Assembly (NCBI GenBank): GCA_011364925.1 | Contig: RDOA01000036.1 | Location: 1 to 37,789 of the forward strand | Direction: 5' to 3' | Source: Promethearchaeota archaeon | GTDB lineage: Archaea > Asgardarchaeota > Lokiarchaeia > Sigyniarchaeales > SOKP01 | DNA: 37,789 bases | In this document: in pieces, positions 23,989-35,144 of the stretch | Layout: the number at the start of each line of letters is the position of its first letter | How positions within the stretch are numbered: position 1 is the first letter of the stretch | Position numbers and translations under genes: made by a program | Notes under the pieces: generated by a model | Databases searched by the model: none | The model's input: the letters and a program-made list of their open reading frames with translations, nothing else | What the model was told of the DNA's origin: nothing

Positions 23989-24348
23989 TTAACTAAATAA
24001 AATATTATCTGCTTGGACGCACATATCTACAAATCCGTTCATGGTTGTAATTTCAATCCCTTCAATCAACTCTTCTGCAGAAACGCCTCTAGCTTTAATA
24101 CAGACCCCACACGCTTTTATTTCCCCACCTTCATCGATAACATCTCTAATCCATTTTTCGACATTATCATAAGTTGAAGGATTTTGACCTTTTTTACCAA
24201 CAAAAACGCCATCTTCAACTAAAAAAATATTGATTTTATGACCTTCCAGTAAGGCAGTATAGGCGAATCTTAACATCGTATAAGGTCTTTCGGAAGAGTA
24301 TGCACCGTTTCCAATTACAATCGTGAAAGTTTTTATCTTCTCTGGCAT
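23989..24348 (-). CDS. DsrE/DsrF-family protein
   Basis: 119 residues. It has the DsrE fold pattern: beta strand TFTIVIGNGAY (8-17), a helix TMLRFAYTALLEGHKINIFL (24-43), a GVF loop, and the ACGVCIKARG segment with C80 and C83, where the second matches the usual persulfide cysteine. These proteins exchange sulfur with TusA. First gene of the pair, divergent from a LysR regulator across 181 bases. The true acceptor (tRNA thiolation, cofactor sulfur, or sulfur respiration) is unknown. Confidence 0.88.
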   Translation of the reverse strand: MPEKIKTFTIVIGNGAYSSERPYTMLRFAYTALLEGHKINIFLVEDGVFVGKKGQNPSTYDNVEKWIRDVIDEGGEIKACGVCIKARGVSAEELIEGIEITTMNGFVDMCVQADNILFS

Positions 24349-24529: not shown

Positions 24530-25438
24530 ATGAACATTGAATACCTAAGAAACTTCGTCAAATTAGCGAATTACAAAAGTTTCTCAGAATTGGCTCGAGA
24601 TTTGCCCATTTCTCAGAGTACGCTCTCACATCAAATATCTCAGCTTGAGAAAGAATTTGGAGTCATACTAATAAATAGAAGTACAAAGAAATTTGAACTA
24701 ACTGAAGCTGGAGCGATTTTTTTAGAATATACTCGTAAGATCATCGAATTATTCGATACGTGCGTAGAAGAGATATCAAAATATAAAGATGTGAGTTATG
24801 AAGAAATAGTCATCTCGGCCTCGACAACTCCCGGTTCTCATATACTACCTCGAGATATTGCTGATTATCGGGATAAAAATCCAAACGTAACTTTTAAAAT
24901 AAAAATTAATAATTCACAGGAATCAATAGAAAATATTATTAAAAATGTGGCAGACTTTGCCGGTATAGGTAATTTCATTAATTATAATAGAGATGATTTC
25001 GATTTTATTAAAATTGGAGAAGACCAACTCAAGTTTATTTGCTCACCTAAACATAAATTATTAAAAAGTGCGAATAATCTAGTAAGTTTCTCTGAACTAG
25101 TCAAATTTCCTTTTATATGGCGGGAAAAAGGTTCAGGGATGAGAAATGCGTTTGAACAACAGTTTCCAGATTATAAAAGGTTAAAAGTTAAACTCGAGAT
25201 GAATGACAATGATTCTATAATTTCAGCAGTGAGTGAATCAAATTACATTAGCATAATGAGCGAAATTATGGCTAACAAGGCGGAAAAAGCAGGTTTAATA
25301 CGCACGTTGGAGATTAAAGGAGCCCCTGTAATAGTGAAGAGAGATTTGTTTTTCATTAAACTAAAAGGTAAGGAATTAAGCAAAATAAAAGCGGATTTTT
25401 GGGAGTATATAAGCAATAAAACAAAAATACATGAATAA
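24530..25438 (+). CDS. LysR-family transcriptional regulator
   Basis: 302 residues. The N-terminal winged helix-turn-helix reads NYKSFSELARDLPISQSTLS (14-33), then HQISQLEKEFG (34-44) and LINRSTKKFELTEAGAIFL. The C-terminal periplasmic-binding-like effector domain covers about 90-295. Length and architecture are normal. LysR proteins usually control a divergent neighbour, here the dsrE-tusA pair, so a sulfur-related effector is plausible but not shown. LysR regulators are less common in archaea than in bacteria, which suggests ancient acquisition. Confidence 0.92.
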   Translation: MNIEYLRNFVKLANYKSFSELARDLPISQSTLSHQISQLEKEFGVILINRSTKKFELTEAGAIFLEYTRKIIELFDTCVEEISKYKDVSYEEIVISASTTPGSHILPRDIADYRDKNPNVTFKIKINNSQESIENIIKNVADFAGIGNFINYNRDDFDFIKIGEDQLKFICSPKHKLLKSANNLVSFSELVKFPFIWREKGSGMRNAFEQQFPDYKRLKVKLEMNDNDSIISAVSESNYISIMSEIMANKAEKAGLIRTLEIKGAPVIVKRDLFFIKLKGKELSKIKADFWEYISNKTKIHE

Positions 25439-25517: not shown

Positions 25518-26939
25518 TTATTTAATTAAAGCTCCCGTTTTATCAAAATTCAGAAAATAACTAATTTTTTCTTTAAGAGGATAGAGTCCTTCTTTAAACA
25601 AAGTAATAAGGAAGATTGCAATGAAAAGGATGGATCCTAATCCTGGAGCGAAATTACTTGCTACATCGACTAACGTTGACGAAGGATCGAATGAAAAAAT
25701 AGTAAATATTAAGGAGCCGACTGCAACCAAAATTGAGATAAAAGAAATAACAACTGCCGTCCTTTTACTTATATCTAAATGTAAAGGACCGATATCTAAA
25801 TGAAAGTGTTTAGGTTGAACTATTATTGATAAAATTGAGTGGTTAATAATGTTGTCTTCAAAATCAATATACACGTGTAAATGTCTTCTTTCACCTTCTT
25901 TTTTATCCTTTTTACTACGATTCTTATTTTTTATCGGAAGCACTGAAAAAATCATAACCGGTGGATTTACCGCGTCTTTACTGACCTCTACTTTCCCGTA
26001 TAATGGATGCACTTCAAATCCTTCTCCTTCCACTCTTAAATCTAAAATTGGAGGCTCTTTTTTTGTAGTTTTTATCACAAAAGAAGTTTCAAATATAGTC
26101 TTTCCTTCCTCGTCTATGATTTTCAATTCTTTGTGAGAAAAGTAAACATAAAACAAATAACTCGTTTGCTCCATCATAACAGAATAGTATTGAAGCCCCA
26201 TATTTATTTCGTAAACCCTTTGTTTAGGTTCTTCTACCTTTCCTTCGTCTTTAGGGGGTTCACCGAGTACTCTTTCTTTCTCAACATATTGTAATTCATC
26301 GATAACAGATCTAGCTGGTGCTCCAGCTCCTGGTGGTGGAGGAGGCGCAGAAGGAGCCATTGAAGGTTCTGGCGGTGCCATTTCCTCCTCTTCTTCCATT
26401 AATTTGAACTCACCAAACTTCTCATCTCTCGACATTACCACTTCTTCATCAATAAAAATCCCATTGTCTGAATCCTCCATCTCATAGACACTTTCTTTCT
26501 TTTTCGCTTTTGCTGCTGGTTTTGGAGCTGGTGCCGAACGCTTTGCCTTTTGATTTTTAAACTTCTCCTTTTTTGCTTCCTTTTTTGATGCCTCTCTCTC
26601 TTTCGGTGCTTTTTCTCTTATATCTGCTTTCGGCTCTTTTTTCTCTTCTTGTTGTTCTTTTTGTTTCTTTGATATCAATTTCAATTGTTTTAATTTCGTT
26701 CTCTCTGAAAGAGCTTTAAGGGTTACAAAATCCACAAAAGCAATGTTTTGTCTAGTCAGGTGAGTACCCTCGAGTGAATTGTAAATATCATCCAATATCG
26801 TTGCAATGCGCACAGATTTCTTATAATTACCAATGAACACAAATTCAGGTAAGTATACAGATAAAACTTCTGTTTTTTTATCATAAAAGATTTTGTTTGT
26901 TTCAATTTCAAGTTTTTCTAGAGTTTGTAATGTTTCCAT
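25518..26939 (-). CDS. Membrane protein with proline-rich linker
   Basis: 473 residues of unknown function. Order: an N-terminal soluble region (1-95), a lysine/glutamate-rich low-complexity stretch (95-150), an acidic segment ending in a proline-rich block with PPPPP at 199-203 followed by GAGAP, a beta-rich domain (about 225-390) and two membrane helices (about 395-420 and 435-455), then a charged C-terminus. The beta-rich region with the MGLQYYSVMMEQ segment has the look of Asgard proteins associated with vWA domains, but I cannot confirm it. Downstream gene of a pair with the 336-residue membrane protein (30 bases apart). Confidence 0.65.
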   Translation of the reverse strand: METLQTLEKLEIETNKIFYDKKTEVLSVYLPEFVFIGNYKKSVRIATILDDIYNSLEGTHLTRQNIAFVDFVTLKALSERTKLKQLKLISKKQKEQQEEKKEPKADIREKAPKEREASKKEAKKEKFKNQKAKRSAPAPKPAAKAKKKESVYEMEDSDNGIFIDEEVVMSRDEKFGEFKLMEEEEEMAPPEPSMAPSAPPPPPGAGAPARSVIDELQYVEKERVLGEPPKDEGKVEEPKQRVYEINMGLQYYSVMMEQTSYLFYVYFSHKELKIIDEEGKTIFETSFVIKTTKKEPPILDLRVEGEGFEVHPLYGKVEVSKDAVNPPVMIFSVLPIKNKNRSKKDKKEGERRHLHVYIDFEDNIINHSILSIIVQPKHFHLDIGPLHLDISKRTAVVISFISILVAVGSLIFTIFSFDPSSTLVDVASNFAPGLGSILFIAIFLITLFKEGLYPLKEKISYFLNFDKTGALIK

Positions 26940-26969
26940 AATACTTTCTCCATGAAAATTCTTTTAAAA

Positions 26970-27980
26970 CTATTGACCTTTAAGGTCTCTTAGGTATGCT
27001 TTAAATTCCAAGACATATTTTTTAATATCTTTTAATTTTTCTATTTTTATATCTTTACCTATCACTTTTTCAATAGCGTCGTTCATCAATTGAAGGTCTT
27101 TATAAGCTTTAAAACTATCATAGATTGCTGTTTCAAAATTAGATGTCCATGGCTTTAACTTCGGATTGGAATCAATTCCTCTTAAGTCCCATTGAACGTC
27201 GCTTTTAACTACTTTGGTTAGGGGTTTTATGCTCAATTCGTCCCAGTTCTTGATGATCCATGGTGCATAGCTATGCAATTTGTCGTAGTCTAATTCTAAA
27301 TCATTTTTCCACTCGAATTGATGATCCCAATTAGCGACAGCTATAAAATTTTCGTTATTAGCATGTTCTCCCGGAAAAAATTTCCAAGAATTTCTGTCTA
27401 TTTTAACGCTTTTAAATGGAGTTCCTTCTCCACTTTGAAAGTAATATCCTATAATACTAGATTCTCCTTTATTAGATAAATTGAAGCGTAAATAAACCTC
27501 GATTTGAGTGATATCAATACTACTATTAAATAATTCTTCTTGAAGTAGTTTGTAAAACACATTTTTTGCTTTGTTTGGATGGCATTTTCCTGAAAACACA
27601 GGATAAAATGTAAAACAATAGAACACATTTTCTCCTTGAATGGGTCCTTTATAGACCTCTACCCAATTTTCTAATGGTTTGATTTGCACTTGAGACCGAA
27701 TAAAATAAAACAGCAAAACCGAATCTACAAGGGCTACAACAACGATTATTATAACGAAAAGAACGATGAAGAAATCTACGATTCTAAAAAAGACCGATAA
27801 AGAAATAAATATGAATAAACCTCCAGTTAGAAAGAAAAAGGTAATAAGCAAGTTTAAAGCCTCATGCTCCTTGTCTTTTTTTGAATATAAAATCGTTGGA
27901 GCATTATCAACTATTACTTCTTTGCTGAAGTCGTTTATGAAAGTTTGAAAATCAACTTTATTCCAATCAGAATTAGACAT
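26970..27980 (-). CDS. Hypothetical protein with two N-terminal membrane helices
   Basis: 336 residues. Two hydrophobic helices (about 42-65 and 68-95) form a hairpin with both ends on one side, leaving a soluble C-terminal domain of about 240 residues with many aromatics (YSKKDK, WKFFPG, WDLRG) and a helical end (285-335) rich in Lys and Glu. No known family recognised. It lies 30 bases upstream of the proline-rich membrane protein gene, so the two are likely an operon and possibly a complex. Confidence 0.6.
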   Translation of the reverse strand: MSNSDWNKVDFQTFINDFSKEVIVDNAPTILYSKKDKEHEALNLLITFFFLTGGLFIFISLSVFFRIVDFFIVLFVIIIVVVALVDSVLLFYFIRSQVQIKPLENWVEVYKGPIQGENVFYCFTFYPVFSGKCHPNKAKNVFYKLLQEELFNSSIDITQIEVYLRFNLSNKGESSIIGYYFQSGEGTPFKSVKIDRNSWKFFPGEHANNENFIAVANWDHQFEWKNDLELDYDKLHSYAPWIIKNWDELSIKPLTKVVKSDVQWDLRGIDSNPKLKPWTSNFETAIYDSFKAYKDLQLMNDAIEKVIGKDIKIEKLKDIKKYVLEFKAYLRDLKGQ

Positions 27981-28226: not shown

Positions 28227-30554
28227 ATGATAGATTTTGAAGATTTTCTTAAATTTATCAAGTCTCAAGACTTTTATTGCGGTCAAATATATCACATCGA
28301 ATATATTCCAGAAATTAAGCCCCGTTTTGAGAATTTGGATAAACCTTTAAGAAAGAGATTAGAACGATGGTTATATAGTAAAGGAATAAAATTATGGAGA
28401 CATCAAGCTGAAGCTATAAATTCAATCAAGCAAGGTAGTAATACATGTATAGTTACATCCACAGCATCAGGAAAATCTTTATGCTATAACTTACCTGTAT
28501 TAGATTACCTTCTAAACAATGAAAAAGCTACAGCTTTGTACCTTTTTCCGACAAAAGCGTTGGCTAGAGACCAATATGCTCAATTAAAAGAAATTTTAAG
28601 CGATACGAACATTAAAGAAAACCGAATTGGAGTCTACGATGGTGATACGAATTCGGATGAAAAAAGGCGCATTTTAACAAACGCAAATATTATTATCACA
28701 AATCCATATGGTTTACACTATTACTTACCATGGTTTAAGCAGAATTGGCGAAGAATATGTAGCAATCTAAAGTATATCGTTCTTGACGAGATTCACATAT
28801 ATAGAGGCGTCTTTGGGTCCAATTTTGCATTGCTCTTAAGGCGGTTGAAGAGAATACTAGACATCTTTGGAATTAAGCCAGTATGGATACTATCGAGTGC
28901 TACAATTAACAACGCGAAAGATTTCTGCGAGAAATTGATTGGCGAAGACTTTGTTATTGTCGATAAAGACGATTCCCCATCGGGAGCAAAAAACGTGATT
29001 TTATGGGATTTACCATACGATACATCGTCAGGCAAATATAGATCCGCCCATCAAGAAACCAAGAATTTGTTTGTTTCTCATCTAAAATATAAAGATGGGA
29101 TACAGACATTAACATTCACCCTGTCAAGAAAAATGGCTGAGTTACAGGCTATTTGGACTAAAAATGCTCTTCCTATGCTCAAAGATAAAATTAGCAGTTA
29201 CAGAGCAGGGATTAGTAAGAAAAAAAGAAGAGAAATCGAAGAAAAGTTTAAAAACAAAAGTATTATAGGAGTTAGTTCTACCAATGCATTAGAATTGGGA
29301 ATCGATATCGGATCACTTGATGCTACAATTAGTTCTGGTTTTCCTGGTACAATTTCAAGCTTTAAACAACAGATAGGGCGCTCAGGAAGAGGATCTGGTT
29401 TATCAATATCTACTTTTGTTCCTATGCAAAATCCACTAGATTTATTTTATGTCCATAACCATGACCAATTATTTGGTAATATTCAAGAACAAGTTTTTAT
29501 AACGCTAAAAAATAATTACATTTTAAAAAATCACTTATGCTGCGCCGCCAAGGAAATTCCTATAACGATCGATGAATACAAGAAGTTTGGGATTGAAGAT
29601 AAGGAGTTATTTGAAACTTGTGTTAATGAATTAATATCTGAATCGTTATTAATGAAACGGGTGGATAAATACTATTGGAAAGGAGAATTTTTTCCAAATG
29701 AGAAGTATAGCTTGAACGCTCTATCCTCAAAGAGTTATAAAGTCATTCTTCGGCAAAAAGGGAGAAATGAACTTCTAACTGTGGAAGACGAAAGTTATGT
29801 TTTTCGAGATTTGCATCCTGGAGCCGTATATCTTTATGAAACTGAGATATATATGGTCCAAGATTTAGATCTTGACGAAAAAATAGTGTATTTATCTAAA
29901 TCAAACGTAGAATTTTATACACAATCGCTTAAGCATACAGATATTACTCCACTTGAAATTAAATCGCAAGATAATACGGGTCTAAATGATTTAATTGAAA
30001 AATTTTTTGGAAATGTAAAAGTTGAGCACGAATATTATTCTTACAAAGTTATAGACACTTTAACGCAGGAAACCATTTCGAGACATCCACTCGATAATAT
30101 TCCGATCATAGAATTTGAAACTCAATCCGTTTGGTTTGGCATTCCGTTTGAATACCAAAAAGAATTAGAATTGAATGGGTTTGATTTAGGTGGCACCATT
30201 CACGCGGTGGAGCACGCAATGATCGCAATGGCTCCAGCGTTAGCTCAAATATCGAGGTGGGATTTGGGAGGAGTATCAATCGATTTCGATCCAGTTAAGC
30301 AACAACCTATTATTTACATTTATGATGCCTATAGAGGTGGTATTGGTATATCAGAACAATTATTCGCCAATCTAATTGAATTATTGAAATTATCCTTAAA
30401 GTTAATTGAATCTTGTAGTTGTAAAACCGATAATGGGTGCCCTTGTTGCGTAATGAGCCCAAAATGCGGTAATAACAACGAACCACTGGACAAAAACGGG
30501 GCTATTTTCTTACTAAGAAAACTCTTAAATTCAGATCAAATTAATTCAATTTAA
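28227..30554 (+). CDS. Hrq1/MrfA-type DEAH helicase with DUF1998 C-terminus
   Basis: 775 residues. Superfamily 2 motifs: Walker A TSTASGKS (77-84), FPTKALARDQ (107-116), DEIH (187-190), SSATINN near 230, the second RecA domain with SYRAGISKKKRR and STNALELGIDIGSLD, and GRSGRGSG. The C-terminal DUF1998-like zinc region has GGTIHAVEHAMI and the cysteine set CSCKTDNGCPCC near 722-733. This matches the YprA/MrfA and Hrq1 helicases, linked in bacteria and fungi to repair of crosslinked DNA. It should act on chromosomal DNA. Its stop abuts the stop of the convergent AOR gene with no gap. Confidence 0.92.
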   Translation: MIDFEDFLKFIKSQDFYCGQIYHIEYIPEIKPRFENLDKPLRKRLERWLYSKGIKLWRHQAEAINSIKQGSNTCIVTSTASGKSLCYNLPVLDYLLNNEKATALYLFPTKALARDQYAQLKEILSDTNIKENRIGVYDGDTNSDEKRRILTNANIIITNPYGLHYYLPWFKQNWRRICSNLKYIVLDEIHIYRGVFGSNFALLLRRLKRILDIFGIKPVWILSSATINNAKDFCEKLIGEDFVIVDKDDSPSGAKNVILWDLPYDTSSGKYRSAHQETKNLFVSHLKYKDGIQTLTFTLSRKMAELQAIWTKNALPMLKDKISSYRAGISKKKRREIEEKFKNKSIIGVSSTNALELGIDIGSLDATISSGFPGTISSFKQQIGRSGRGSGLSISTFVPMQNPLDLFYVHNHDQLFGNIQEQVFITLKNNYILKNHLCCAAKEIPITIDEYKKFGIEDKELFETCVNELISESLLMKRVDKYYWKGEFFPNEKYSLNALSSKSYKVILRQKGRNELLTVEDESYVFRDLHPGAVYLYETEIYMVQDLDLDEKIVYLSKSNVEFYTQSLKHTDITPLEIKSQDNTGLNDLIEKFFGNVKVEHEYYSYKVIDTLTQETISRHPLDNIPIIEFETQSVWFGIPFEYQKELELNGFDLGGTIHAVEHAMIAMAPALAQISRWDLGGVSIDFDPVKQQPIIYIYDAYRGGIGISEQLFANLIELLKLSLKLIESCSCKTDNGCPCCVMSPKCGNNNEPLDKNGAIFLLRKLLNSDQINSI

Positions 30555-33074: not shown

Positions 33075-33082
33075 TTTATATT
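33075..33082 (+). promoter_or_regulatory. TATA box of the DUF4139 gene
   Basis: TTTATATT sits about 27 bases before the ATG at 33105 and no Shine-Dalgarno is visible, so the transcript is probably leaderless. This also supports ATG 33105 over TTG 33081. Confidence 0.4.
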
Positions 33083-33104
33083 GGTAAATCGTTATACTAT
33101 CATC

Positions 33105-35144
33105 ATGTCGAAATTAAATGTTAAAAAAGTGATAATTTTCAAGCATGGAGTTTCTTACTACATCCTCGAAGGTACTGTTAAAGGAACTGACACTTTCGAA
33201 TTAGAGTTTAAAATTGACGAAATGGACGATGTACTAAAATCGCTCTTTGTTCTTGATACCAGTGAAAAAGGATACATTAGCTCGATCTCTTACGACGCGG
33301 CTTTAGACACCTCTCAATTATTAAAATCTATCATGCTGAACATACCTGACAAAGACTCTTTCTCTTCTCTAATTACGCAAATAAAAGGAGCGAATATTAA
33401 CCTTATAATAACGGGGGGAAAAACTATGTCTGGAAAGATCATGGGGATCGAAGAATTTGAGAAATTGAGCAAGGATGAAAAAATTGTTGAGAAACTGCTC
33501 ATACTCCTCCAAGATAACGAGGTCATATCGAAAATTAACTTTAGCGAGATAAAATCCTTTGACATTATGAACGAAGACATCAAAAAGGATTTAAAGTTTT
33601 TTCTCGATACTGTTATCTCAGGGAAGAAAAAAGACGCAAAGAAAATCGTTATAAATTGCGAATCGGGAGGGAATGACGATGTCGAACGAGTCATCTTTGT
33701 TTACTATATTCGAGAAAGTCCGATCTGGAAGACCTCATATCGTTTGATTATGAGTAAAGAGCAAGCGATAGAAGAAAAGTGCTTACTATCTGGTTGGAGT
33801 CTTATTGAAAATACGACTAATCAAGATTGGGAGGATGTTGAGTTATCATTGGTTGCCGGAATGCCCGTGTCTTTTAAATATGAGTTTTACCGACCTATTT
33901 TCATCCAAAGACCCGTTATTCAACCCCCAAAAGTGCTAACCGTTAAACCTACTGAAATAGAAGAGGCAATTGAAATGGAAAAGTATAAAGAATATGCCAT
34001 GGCGGAAATGGAACCGAGTGTTATGAGTAAAAAAGCTAAAGCGGTTCGAAGGGGAGCTCCTTCCCCTGCTCCAAGTGGAGCGTTAGCTTTCGGTTCTACA
34101 GGAGGCATGATGTCAGACGAAGCCTTACTTGATAAAGTAAAATCCCAAACAAAAATTCAAACAAAGGATTTAGGCGAATTATTTGAGTACAACATTTCAA
34201 ATCCTGTATCGATAAAAAGAAAACAGTCGGCATTAGTGCCTATTTTAACCGAATCCATTAAAGCTAGGAGGGTATTACTCTATAACAAAACCGAATACGA
34301 TAAAAATCCTAATGCTTGTCTTGAGATCACAAATAATACCAATCTAACGCTTGAAAGGGGACCCGTCACTATTATATACGACGATAATTTAGCTGGAGAA
34401 GCAATAATTCCCTTCCTTAACAAAGAGGATACTCGTCTATTGAATTACGCCGTTGAACAAGCGGTATTAGTAACTCACGAAGCTAAATCTGAAAGTTTAA
34501 ACGTACACAAAATTACGATTGGGAGTGGCTACTCCTATGAATATTATTACACAAATCAAACGACAACCTATAAAATAAATAATAAAACTAATGAAGAAAA
34601 GGAATTGTATTTAGACCATCCAAAAACCTACGGATACAAATTTATTGAAAAACCAATTGAACCAGAAGAAACACCTAATTTTTGGCGTTTTAAAATTACA
34701 TTAAAACCTAAGGAAGCAATTACATTTAAATTAAAAGAACAACGCGAAGATTATACTAGTTACTATATAAGGAATTGGTCGAAAGGCGACATTTTAAAGA
34801 GAGTGGGATTTTATGTCAAGCAAAAGTTCATTAACGAAAATCTTGAAACTCAACTAAAAGAAATCGCGGAATTAATACAAACACTAAACGATAAAACTAA
34901 CATGAGAGACAAACTATACGAAGAAAGAGACCTTATGTCCGAAGAACAGTCACGATTGAGAGAAAACATAGCCGTGTTAGGAGACGATACCCAATCTATG
35001 GCTTTAAAAGAACGTTACGTGAAAAAATTAAACGATCAAGAAAGTAGATTCGAAAAAATTTCTGCTGAGGTGAAAAAACTCGACAAGGAAATTGATTCAC
35101 TCAATAAATCTATTGAAAACAAAATGAATAAATTGAAAACTTAA
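33105..35144 (+). CDS. DUF4139-domain protein
   Basis: 679 residues from ATG 33105. The N-terminal region (about 1-190) starts with a beta strand VKKVIIFKHGVSYY. The DUF4139 core (about 200-590) contains VYYIRESPIWKTSYRL, SGWSLIENTTNQDWEDV, LSLVAGMPVSF and LERGPVTIIYDDNLAGEAII, the canonical order for this family, which is found in bacteria, archaea and some eukaryotes as a predicted beta-sandwich of unknown role. A low-complexity Pro/Ser/Gly stretch lies near 320-335 and a coiled-coil region (about 595-679) ends the protein. No signal peptide or membrane helix. Function unknown. Confidence 0.85.
   Translation: MSKLNVKKVIIFKHGVSYYILEGTVKGTDTFELEFKIDEMDDVLKSLFVLDTSEKGYISSISYDAALDTSQLLKSIMLNIPDKDSFSSLITQIKGANINLIITGGKTMSGKIMGIEEFEKLSKDEKIVEKLLILLQDNEVISKINFSEIKSFDIMNEDIKKDLKFFLDTVISGKKKDAKKIVINCESGGNDDVERVIFVYYIRESPIWKTSYRLIMSKEQAIEEKCLLSGWSLIENTTNQDWEDVELSLVAGMPVSFKYEFYRPIFIQRPVIQPPKVLTVKPTEIEEAIEMEKYKEYAMAEMEPSVMSKKAKAVRRGAPSPAPSGALAFGSTGGMMSDEALLDKVKSQTKIQTKDLGELFEYNISNPVSIKRKQSALVPILTESIKARRVLLYNKTEYDKNPNACLEITNNTNLTLERGPVTIIYDDNLAGEAIIPFLNKEDTRLLNYAVEQAVLVTHEAKSESLNVHKITIGSGYSYEYYYTNQTTTYKINNKTNEEKELYLDHPKTYGYKFIEKPIEPEETPNFWRFKITLKPKEAITFKLKEQREDYTSYYIRNWSKGDILKRVGFYVKQKFINENLETQLKEIAELIQTLNDKTNMRDKLYEERDLMSEEQSRLRENIAVLGDDTQSMALKERYVKKLNDQESRFEKISAEVKKLDKEIDSLNKSIENKMNKLKT

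Follow-up and report, generated by a model that had tools for sequence, protein, structure and literature searches.

P473 of a Lokiarchaeal genome and a family of hairpin-anchored proteins with varied heads in Asgard archaea

The window considered here, the whole stretch of 37,789 nucleotides that was analysed (contig RDOA01000036.1 of assembly GCA_011364925.1, from a Promethearchaeota archaeon of the Lokiarchaeia), contains two neighbouring open reading frames (ORFs) on the minus strand that encode proteins of 336 and 473 residues, P336 (26970-27980) and P473 (25518-26939), and a scan of both against Pfam and NCBIfam gave no match above cut-off. The original prediction, in which the pair was read as a membrane operon whose second product carries a polyproline linker of the profilin-binding style, raises the question of what kind of protein P473 is and whether it connects the membrane with the actin system. 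Both ORFs are real, as are the 30 bases that separate the stop of P336, the upstream gene, from the start of P473. It is probable, in our judgement, that P473 is the Lokiarchaeal representative of a set of Asgard-wide modular membrane tethers in which differing heads are carried on a common anchor facing the cytosol, the topology being predicted.

Architecture and family of P473

The structure model of P473 (mean predicted local distance difference test score, pLDDT, of 61.6, a low value owing to the disordered linker) runs from a folded N-terminal head through a disordered linker to a beta domain and, last, a hairpin of helices. The head is a small alpha/beta domain of residues 1-92 (26664-26939, on the minus strand, as are all parts of the two genes given below), with pLDDT block means of 81-92 over residues 11-90. 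The linker, residues 93-236 (26232-26663), is charged and proline-rich and lies mostly below a pLDDT of 50, almost wholly so in the segments 102-198 and 201-235. The beta domain, residues 237-390 (25770-26231), is modelled with moderate confidence (block means 48-87) as a sandwich whose fold may be UPA-like, and it is the most conserved part of the protein: in an alignment of P473 with 39 orthologue ORFs (40 sequences), median identity to the window protein is 75% in the beta domain, 66% in the hairpin region, 53% in the head and 19% in the linker (38-39 orthologues). Fragments truncated at a contig end or by a stop were omitted from this alignment (e.g. L028, L030, L054, L068, L073 and L075-L078) and the 5'-cut L064 and L066 were kept. 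Two orthologues have an unusual form, one (L027 1495-3288, minus, genome G017) carrying a DUF4332/helix-hairpin-helix domain (E 2.3e-26) inside its linker and the other (L075 4104-5587, minus, G027) being broken by stops into two frames, as a broken gene or through an assembly error.

The C-terminal helices of the model, residues 392-416 (25692-25766) and 423-450 (25590-25673), bear out the earlier description of P473 as a membrane protein with a beta-rich domain, and their assignment to the membrane is consistent with the charge pattern. On average 3.4 lysine and arginine residues precede the hairpin and 4.5 follow it, against 0.025 in its loop (40 sequences), such a residue being present in the loop of a single sequence. 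Both flanks of the C-terminal hairpin of P473 are thus positive and lie on the same side, the mark of the anchor family described below, and from these charges at the outer ends and their near absence from the loop the head, linker and sandwich are predicted, by the positive-inside rule, to be cytosolic. The head itself matched nothing convincingly in Pfam or among PDB sequences, a profile comparison with the beta-grasp-looking heads of relatives was negative, and no sequence or profile relation to the ubiquitin-like family was found. The order of elements in its model is compatible with a beta-grasp, and the head might be called ubiquitin-like by element order only, a likeness that is unproven; ubiquitin-like matches in relatives all lie below threshold (USP7_C2 E 0.068, Ufm1 E 0.0025). 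Weak Pfam matches of P473 (TFB6, Draxin and two others), all below cut-off and mostly over the charged linker, were rejected.

A single-sequence search found P473 in 49 of 97 relatives, which belong to family f1 save for one f3 genome, and a profile scan of one genome per species gave 48 loci, all of them in Lokiarchaeota or Lokiarchaeia. The C-terminal module, when searched, also gave weak matches in family f8 of the same phylum, in whose proteins an N-terminal stretch, hydrophobic and helix-like, is followed by a linker, then a sandwich and finally the same hairpin. The P473 profile A1 (32 of the 40 aligned sequences; a further profile, A3, has 30 sequences) matches the f8 profile A4 in hhalign at E 1.9e-9 (probability 96), and A4 alone finds ORFs bearing actin, tetratricopeptide repeats (TPR) or leucine-rich repeats (LRR) at E 6.4e-50 to 1.1e-18, as well as P473 itself at E 1.7e-6. 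Of the 227 genomes of the phylum, 111, in 38 of 61 genera, have sandwich and hairpin according to the combined profile A5; members other than P473 were read in selected stretches, the rest of the 111 genomes being counted only. Given that the A5 search was iterative, a profile A8 was built to test for drift, from rows found with A5 but absent from it. A8 matches A4 at E 7e-12 and A1 at E 3e-6 (hhalign probability 88), and against the control A2, the P336 profile (built on 39 sequences, drawn from the 47 genomes in which P336 was matched), it gave no match (probability 0.5). The profile of GTPase-headed members, A9, matches A8 at E 8e-27, and A4, A8 and A9 reported no non-family ORF in a pool of 918 ORFs; the A1 run also lists non-family rows, the best three of which are pieces of P473 orthologues.

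Profile matches of the C-terminal module thus extend to other lineages, and by these comparisons the sandwich and hairpin of P473 belong to an Asgard-wide family that appears to be unnamed and undescribed. Among the titles and abstract openings listed from the open full-text literature (most subscription papers and all preprints lie outside it) no description was found of the family, of a permuted Asgard GTPase or actin, or of a fusion to the anchor. Four f1 genomes lacking a P473 match (G025, G032, G038 and G043) carry a GTPase-headed member, and in nine further f1 genomes lacking P473, several of the genomes being incomplete, neither P473 nor a GTPase-headed member was seen.

Heads of the relatives and the fold of the sandwich

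Pfam identifies heads in part of the family as Actin (E 1.1e-106 and 6.7e-86), Ras (6.8e-29, 3.1e-29 and 5.5e-38), TPR and LRR, with the LRR lying after the hairpin and not before it; the remaining heads gave no Pfam match above cut-off. Both actin-headed members come from genome G087 (L234 1-1713 and, on a second contig, L235 2143-4401, both minus) and consist of a circularly permuted actin, a charged linker and the anchor. The Pfam actin profile is matched in the order 69-408 then 5-69 in the first and 63-409 then 6-70 in the second, and in comparison with the intact actins of G087 and of the window's own genome, residues 4-297 of the L234 ORF correspond to actin residues 82-377 (52% identity) and residues 320-393 to 11-84 (69%), while the L235 ORF has the same permuted order at 37-44% identity. 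The start of these ORFs is 11 and 0 residues from the previous in-frame stop, and therefore neither has a hidden in-frame N-terminus upstream. Compared with canonical actin and Lokiactin (PF00022), the G087 heads are 52-69% (L271, L234 ORF) and 37-44% (L317, L235 ORF) identical to the intact actins of the phylum but differ in being permuted and fused to a membrane anchor, a feature of these relatives and not of P473. The phosphate-binding loops of L234 and L235 look partly degenerate by eye, on the residue roles that we assume for actin.

Permuted Ras-like GTPases followed by a linker and the anchor are encoded at L241 5644-7200 (minus), L272 2561-4024, L273 2698-4098, L274 959-3100, L277 64-2184 and L279 2062-3837. 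The Ras match begins at profile position 47 in L241 and L272, where the P-loop part follows (Roc 1-42), and at position 48 in L277, which has a second stretch in addition. In six of the seven GTPase-headed ORFs the P-loop comes after the NKxD-like and SAK-like motifs, and in the seventh, L275, none of these three motifs was seen. The Ras-like motifs are common to these heads and the Ras/Rab GTPases (PF00071), and permutation is common to them and the YlqF/HSR1 GTPases; however, the motif order of YlqF/HSR1 is G4-G5-G1-G2-G3, whereas the family heads have the order G3-G4-G5-G1-G2 and are fused to a membrane anchor. We take the permutation to be placed near the subdomain 1/2 junction in actin and in the interswitch hairpin in the GTPase.

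Other members were seen alongside these. The ORFs at L305 2204-4339 (minus), L306, L307 and L308, of family f27, combine very acidic linkers with repeats at the N-terminus that look like beta-grasp domains, the sub-cut-off Ufm1 match (E 0.0025) falling in L305. Heads that look like a kinase N-lobe or an SPFH domain by eye (f27, f21, f24 and f22) are not claimed as such, Pfam being below cut-off (Band_7 E 0.0057, in one). A CHAT-domain protein (L283 2716-4845, plus; E 1.8e-30) and one alike by eye (L284 1545-3935, minus) match A5 weakly in their middle part and none of A1, A4, A8 and A9, and no hydrophobic hairpin was found in either; their membership is tentative, since A5 alone matches.

It is suggested that in P473 the C-terminal two-helix hairpin would fix the protein in the membrane, as the model and charge pattern indicate, with the beta-sandwich on the cytosolic face, where, as the most conserved part, it probably provides a common docking or assembly surface. 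The long, disordered, charged linker would allow the variable head to explore the cytosol close to the membrane, and the head would set the task, relatives having a Ras-like GTPase or an actin, both permuted, or TPR, and P473 the small alpha/beta domain. Several findings weigh against uniting the heads in this way. A9 has no match to A1 (probability 1.2) or to A4 (probability 4.8), and the link between the GTPase-headed members and P473 passes through A8. A1 directly reaches few distant groups (f7 at 1.2e-7 and two f25 ORFs at about 1e-5, possibly via the linker) and misses all of the GTPase, actin, f21, f24 and f27 ORFs, and A8, run on the two actin-headed ORFs, gave 0.0035 for one and no match for the other. 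Furthermore, the actin-headed form occurs in a single genome (G087, two loci), charged linkers with little proline are found in the TPR and actin members and in most of those from f27, and in the LRR member the sandwich is not preceded by a linker. The weakness of the direct profile links from P473 to the groups headed by a GTPase or by actin slightly reduces our confidence in the tether reading.

The fold of the sandwich raises the possibility that it is a true UPA domain and that P473 acts like the ZU5-UPA proteins of the UNC5 and NLRP1 type, via assembly or release of a signalling head. In VIA-align, for which, as in all fold searches here, the whole models of P473 and P336 were used, the top rows for P473 are 7crv (rNLRP1; Z 10.0, root-mean-square deviation (rmsd) 3.2, 114 aligned), 3g5b (UNC5b; Z 9.8, rmsd 3.0, 124 aligned) and 7crw (rNLRP1 with DPP9; Z 9.6, rmsd 2.8, 116 aligned), with 7jn7 (CARD8; Z 8.8) and 6x6a (Z 8.2) lower. 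The aligned parts of these chains are, we presume, UPA domains, and the UPA domain (UNC5b, the FIIND of NLRP1/CARD8, ankyrin; PF17217) is thereby alike to the P473 sandwich in size and gives the model its highest structural scores. Nevertheless, this scenario is very improbable for two reasons: first, the same list contains other sandwiches (a BBSome chain at Z 9.0, pilus chaperones at 7-8 and MSP domains at 7.1-7.4), so that UPA scores of 10.0-9.6 stand against others of up to 9.0 for a domain of the model confidence given above, and the best Foldseek match of P473 is an amylopullulanase (E 2.5e-3). Second, PF17217 has no match at any P473 locus and none above cut-off in 77 genomes, while ZU5 has no match in P473 and PF00791 none above cut-off in the same 77 genomes, a weak one in a single genome lying in a frame that is short and broken. 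UPA and ZU5 were consequently set aside as sequence families for P473, for which UPA would be a fold lead only. In known proteins UPA is followed by a death-fold domain, whereas the P473 sandwich is followed by a membrane hairpin. A further likeness is to VAP/Scs2, which consist of an MSP domain and a tail anchor: in both, an Ig-like sandwich, cytosolic by prediction in P473, is joined to a membrane anchor at the C-terminus, but the Z scores of the MSP rows are middling, P473 has a hairpin in place of a single helix, and its order is head, linker, sandwich.

The proline-rich linker

The stretch APPPPPGAGAP, flanked by charged low-complexity sequence, is present in the ORF translation as originally described, but its limits are residues 198-208 (26316-26348) and not 197-208. 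Residues 91-242 contain 23.7% aspartate and glutamate, 22.4% lysine and arginine and 11.8% proline, and a run of at least five prolines arose in 0.45% of 2000 shuffles of the P473 linker, so that the observed run goes beyond what its composition would give. A codon-pattern search of the genome (3.9 Mb) found the five-proline pattern (P5) at just seven loci, four of which are in frame counting P473, and three of the six other loci hold an ORF with PPPP. Among the orthologues, proline makes up 8-18% of the linker in all 40 sequences, while the longest run is at least four prolines in 26 of 40, at least five in 13, at most three in 14 and at most two in four; in 23 of 40 linker rows the runs (of 4-6 prolines) exceed those of shuffles (p <0.05). 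Linker conservation, which the original prediction had made decisive, therefore has a divided outcome: proline content is conserved, the proline run varies, and the median identity is the 19% given above.

Across the family, linkers are mostly charged and often proline-rich, with varying length and composition. Of 104 family ORFs (at least 200 residues long, P473 orthologues included), 67 have at least 12 prolines within 60 residues, against 3 of 661 other ORFs of the same stretches, and 46 have a PPPP run, against 4 of the 661; the sequences were not thinned for kinship, so the contrast is usable and p-values are not. It is possible, although on balance somewhat unlikely, that the linker is a mere spacer, a charged and proline-stiffened stalk without specific binding that carries unrelated heads on a common anchor. 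This would be consistent with a composition that is kept in spite of the low identity, with the differences in linker length and composition across the family, and with two other P5 ORFs of the genome, in which the run lies, by eye, just before a hydrophobic stretch resembling a membrane helix, as in a stalk. The runs beyond shuffled expectation and the strong proline enrichment of the family argue in the other direction, although binding does not follow from either. In the tether reading, the linker may offer low-affinity docking sites made of its prolines. As a separate observation, a protein of 147 residues in the same genome (L209 2679-3119, plus, contig C101), coiled-coil-like by eye, ends with a tract of PPGGPPGGPPPPPGG and a short motif, LRGAIMGELKQLF, and gave no Pfam match above cut-off and no convincing PDB match; a similar LRGGMTQELKKLF follows the prolines of L278.

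The proline-rich linkers of Ena/VASP and formins bind profilin, and the original prediction implied a similar role for P473, as a membrane dock for profilin-actin whose polyproline recruits profilin. The resemblance lies in proline runs within a disordered, predicted cytosolic linker; the differences are that the P473 run varies among orthologues and that P473 has neither a Pfam domain above cut-off nor a WH2-like motif. The window's own genome has five actin-family matches and a profilin-like ORF of 127 residues (G000:C16; 21.8 bits in Pfam against a cut-off of 25, nearest PDB chain 5zza at E 8e-5), and these, together with the rarity of P5 in the genome and the existence of an actin-headed relative, would fit such a dock. 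Profilin-like proteins are reported elsewhere in the group, an account of Ca. L. ossiferum listing three, with eight gelsolin-like proteins, in the passage concerned (PMC9834061). In the relevant passages of a study of Loki profilins 1 and 2, these are reported not to bind VASP polyproline, and its authors suggested that Loki profilins might still bind (PMC8410842). The GTPase and other heads of the family carry similar linkers, and a regular expression for a WH2-like motif matched none of 105 family ORFs, against 6 of 813 others. With at most PP in four of 40 orthologues and at most PPP in 14, the run is so variable, and the linker identity so low, that no fixed profilin site appears to be conserved. 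We therefore regard a profilin-actin dock as improbable; profilin docking of the P473 linker, a possible and unproven function, is unsupported by the sequences compared. The proposed link between membrane and actin fared differently: it has indirect support at the level of the family, since the same anchor carries an actin fold in G087 and an anchor/actin-family link therefore exists in that one other genome, and for P473 itself it is a conjecture.

P336, the gene neighbourhood and the role of the family

The model of P336 is confident (pLDDT 89.9) and consists of a short N-terminal part, two helices and an alpha/beta domain, the helices (residues 42-64 and 72-96) confirming the double-helix segment that had been predicted and forming a membrane hairpin of residues 42-96 (27693-27857) in the model. 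P336 was found in 47 of 97 relatives by single-sequence search, in f1 only, and in 51 of 227 genomes of the phylum, every one of f1. Its whole model gave no Foldseek match at E 0.001. Two candidate identities were rejected: a sandwich of the necrosis-inducing-protein type, for which the VIA-align Z scores reach 8.5 at most (143 aligned, rmsd 3.0), close to the stated background, and which is absent from the 19 Pfam families that any of 39 P336 homologues matched at E 1, and DUF2207_C, whose match (16 of 39 members; best E 0.009) is distrusted, as it spans the helices (residues 4-84 in the window protein). In profile comparison with A8 no relation emerged, and P336 appears to be a separate membrane protein outside the anchor family, seen only in this Loki family, f1.

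The typical gene order among relatives is helicase, P336, P473, LysR, DsrE, and in the window this corresponds to a divergent DEAD-box helicase with an MrfA zinc-binding domain (28227-30554, plus), the pair, a convergent LysR-type regulator (24530-25438, plus) and a DsrE-like protein (23989-24348, minus). A neighbour of 687 residues (33081-35144, plus) is also conserved in synteny (cluster c9), with a weak DUF4139 match (E 0.021). Both genes of the pair are held by 43 genomes, 34 of which have them on one contig; their spacing is at most 200 bases in 15 of these 34, 1.4-1.8 kb in 18 and 1.19 Mb in one (G053). In 12 of the 13 wide-gap genomes whose intervals were read (of 18; examples are L071, L072, L079 and L080), a gene for an FGGY carbohydrate kinase lies between P336 and P473 on the opposite strand (FGGY_N, E 6.3e-49 in one representative), and in G004 the wide gap contains a different ORF on the same strand. 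Given 18 of 34 pairs split by 1.4-1.8 kb and one pair 1.19 Mb apart, the two genes are not an obligate operon, and close co-directional pairing is not a conserved trait of the 34 genomes. The original prediction of an operon thus holds as a close pair here and in part of the relatives, for which a transcriptional unit may be inferred, but does not hold as a general arrangement; among the genomes searched, conservation of the pair reaches no further than f1, the one family with P336, and extends only in part to its tight spacing. P336 and P473 are a syntenic pair that is operon-like at times.

These distributions also bear on the idea that P336 and P473 form one dedicated two-protein membrane complex encoded by an obligate operon. 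That both genes occur in 43 genomes, against P336 alone in four and P473 alone in six, and that they share a strand in 33 of the 34 same-contig pairs would agree with a complex. However, this is doubtful in view of the wide separation and intervening kinase, the distance in G053, three g5 genomes with P473 and no P336 match, and the confinement of P336 to f1 where the anchor family reaches far wider, and we consider it quite unlikely. It is suggested instead that P336 would be a distinct membrane protein retained in the gene neighbourhood of P473.

In the tether reading of P473, a further-reaching scenario can be put forward, tentatively and as rather unlikely in its entirety: a so far overlooked Asgard class of hairpin-anchored proteins facing the cytosol might display actin-like, Rab-like and adaptor heads on a disordered tether that is often rich in proline, the permutation in two of the head types making the tether leave from the nucleotide-responsive part of the head, so that nucleotide state could be converted into pull or release at the membrane, and P473 might be the Loki version, acting via its linker in a membrane-cytoskeleton interface. 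The circularly permuted actin and the permuted Ras-like GTPases, in which G3 comes first, would be unusual in themselves. The family may bear on the connection of the cytoskeleton and the many small GTPases of Asgard archaea to the membrane, a matter of importance for understanding how eukaryotic cells arose: with a common membrane module, with actin and Ras-like folds among its heads, and with members in 111 of the 227 genomes searched, about half, it provides concrete proteins for such tests.

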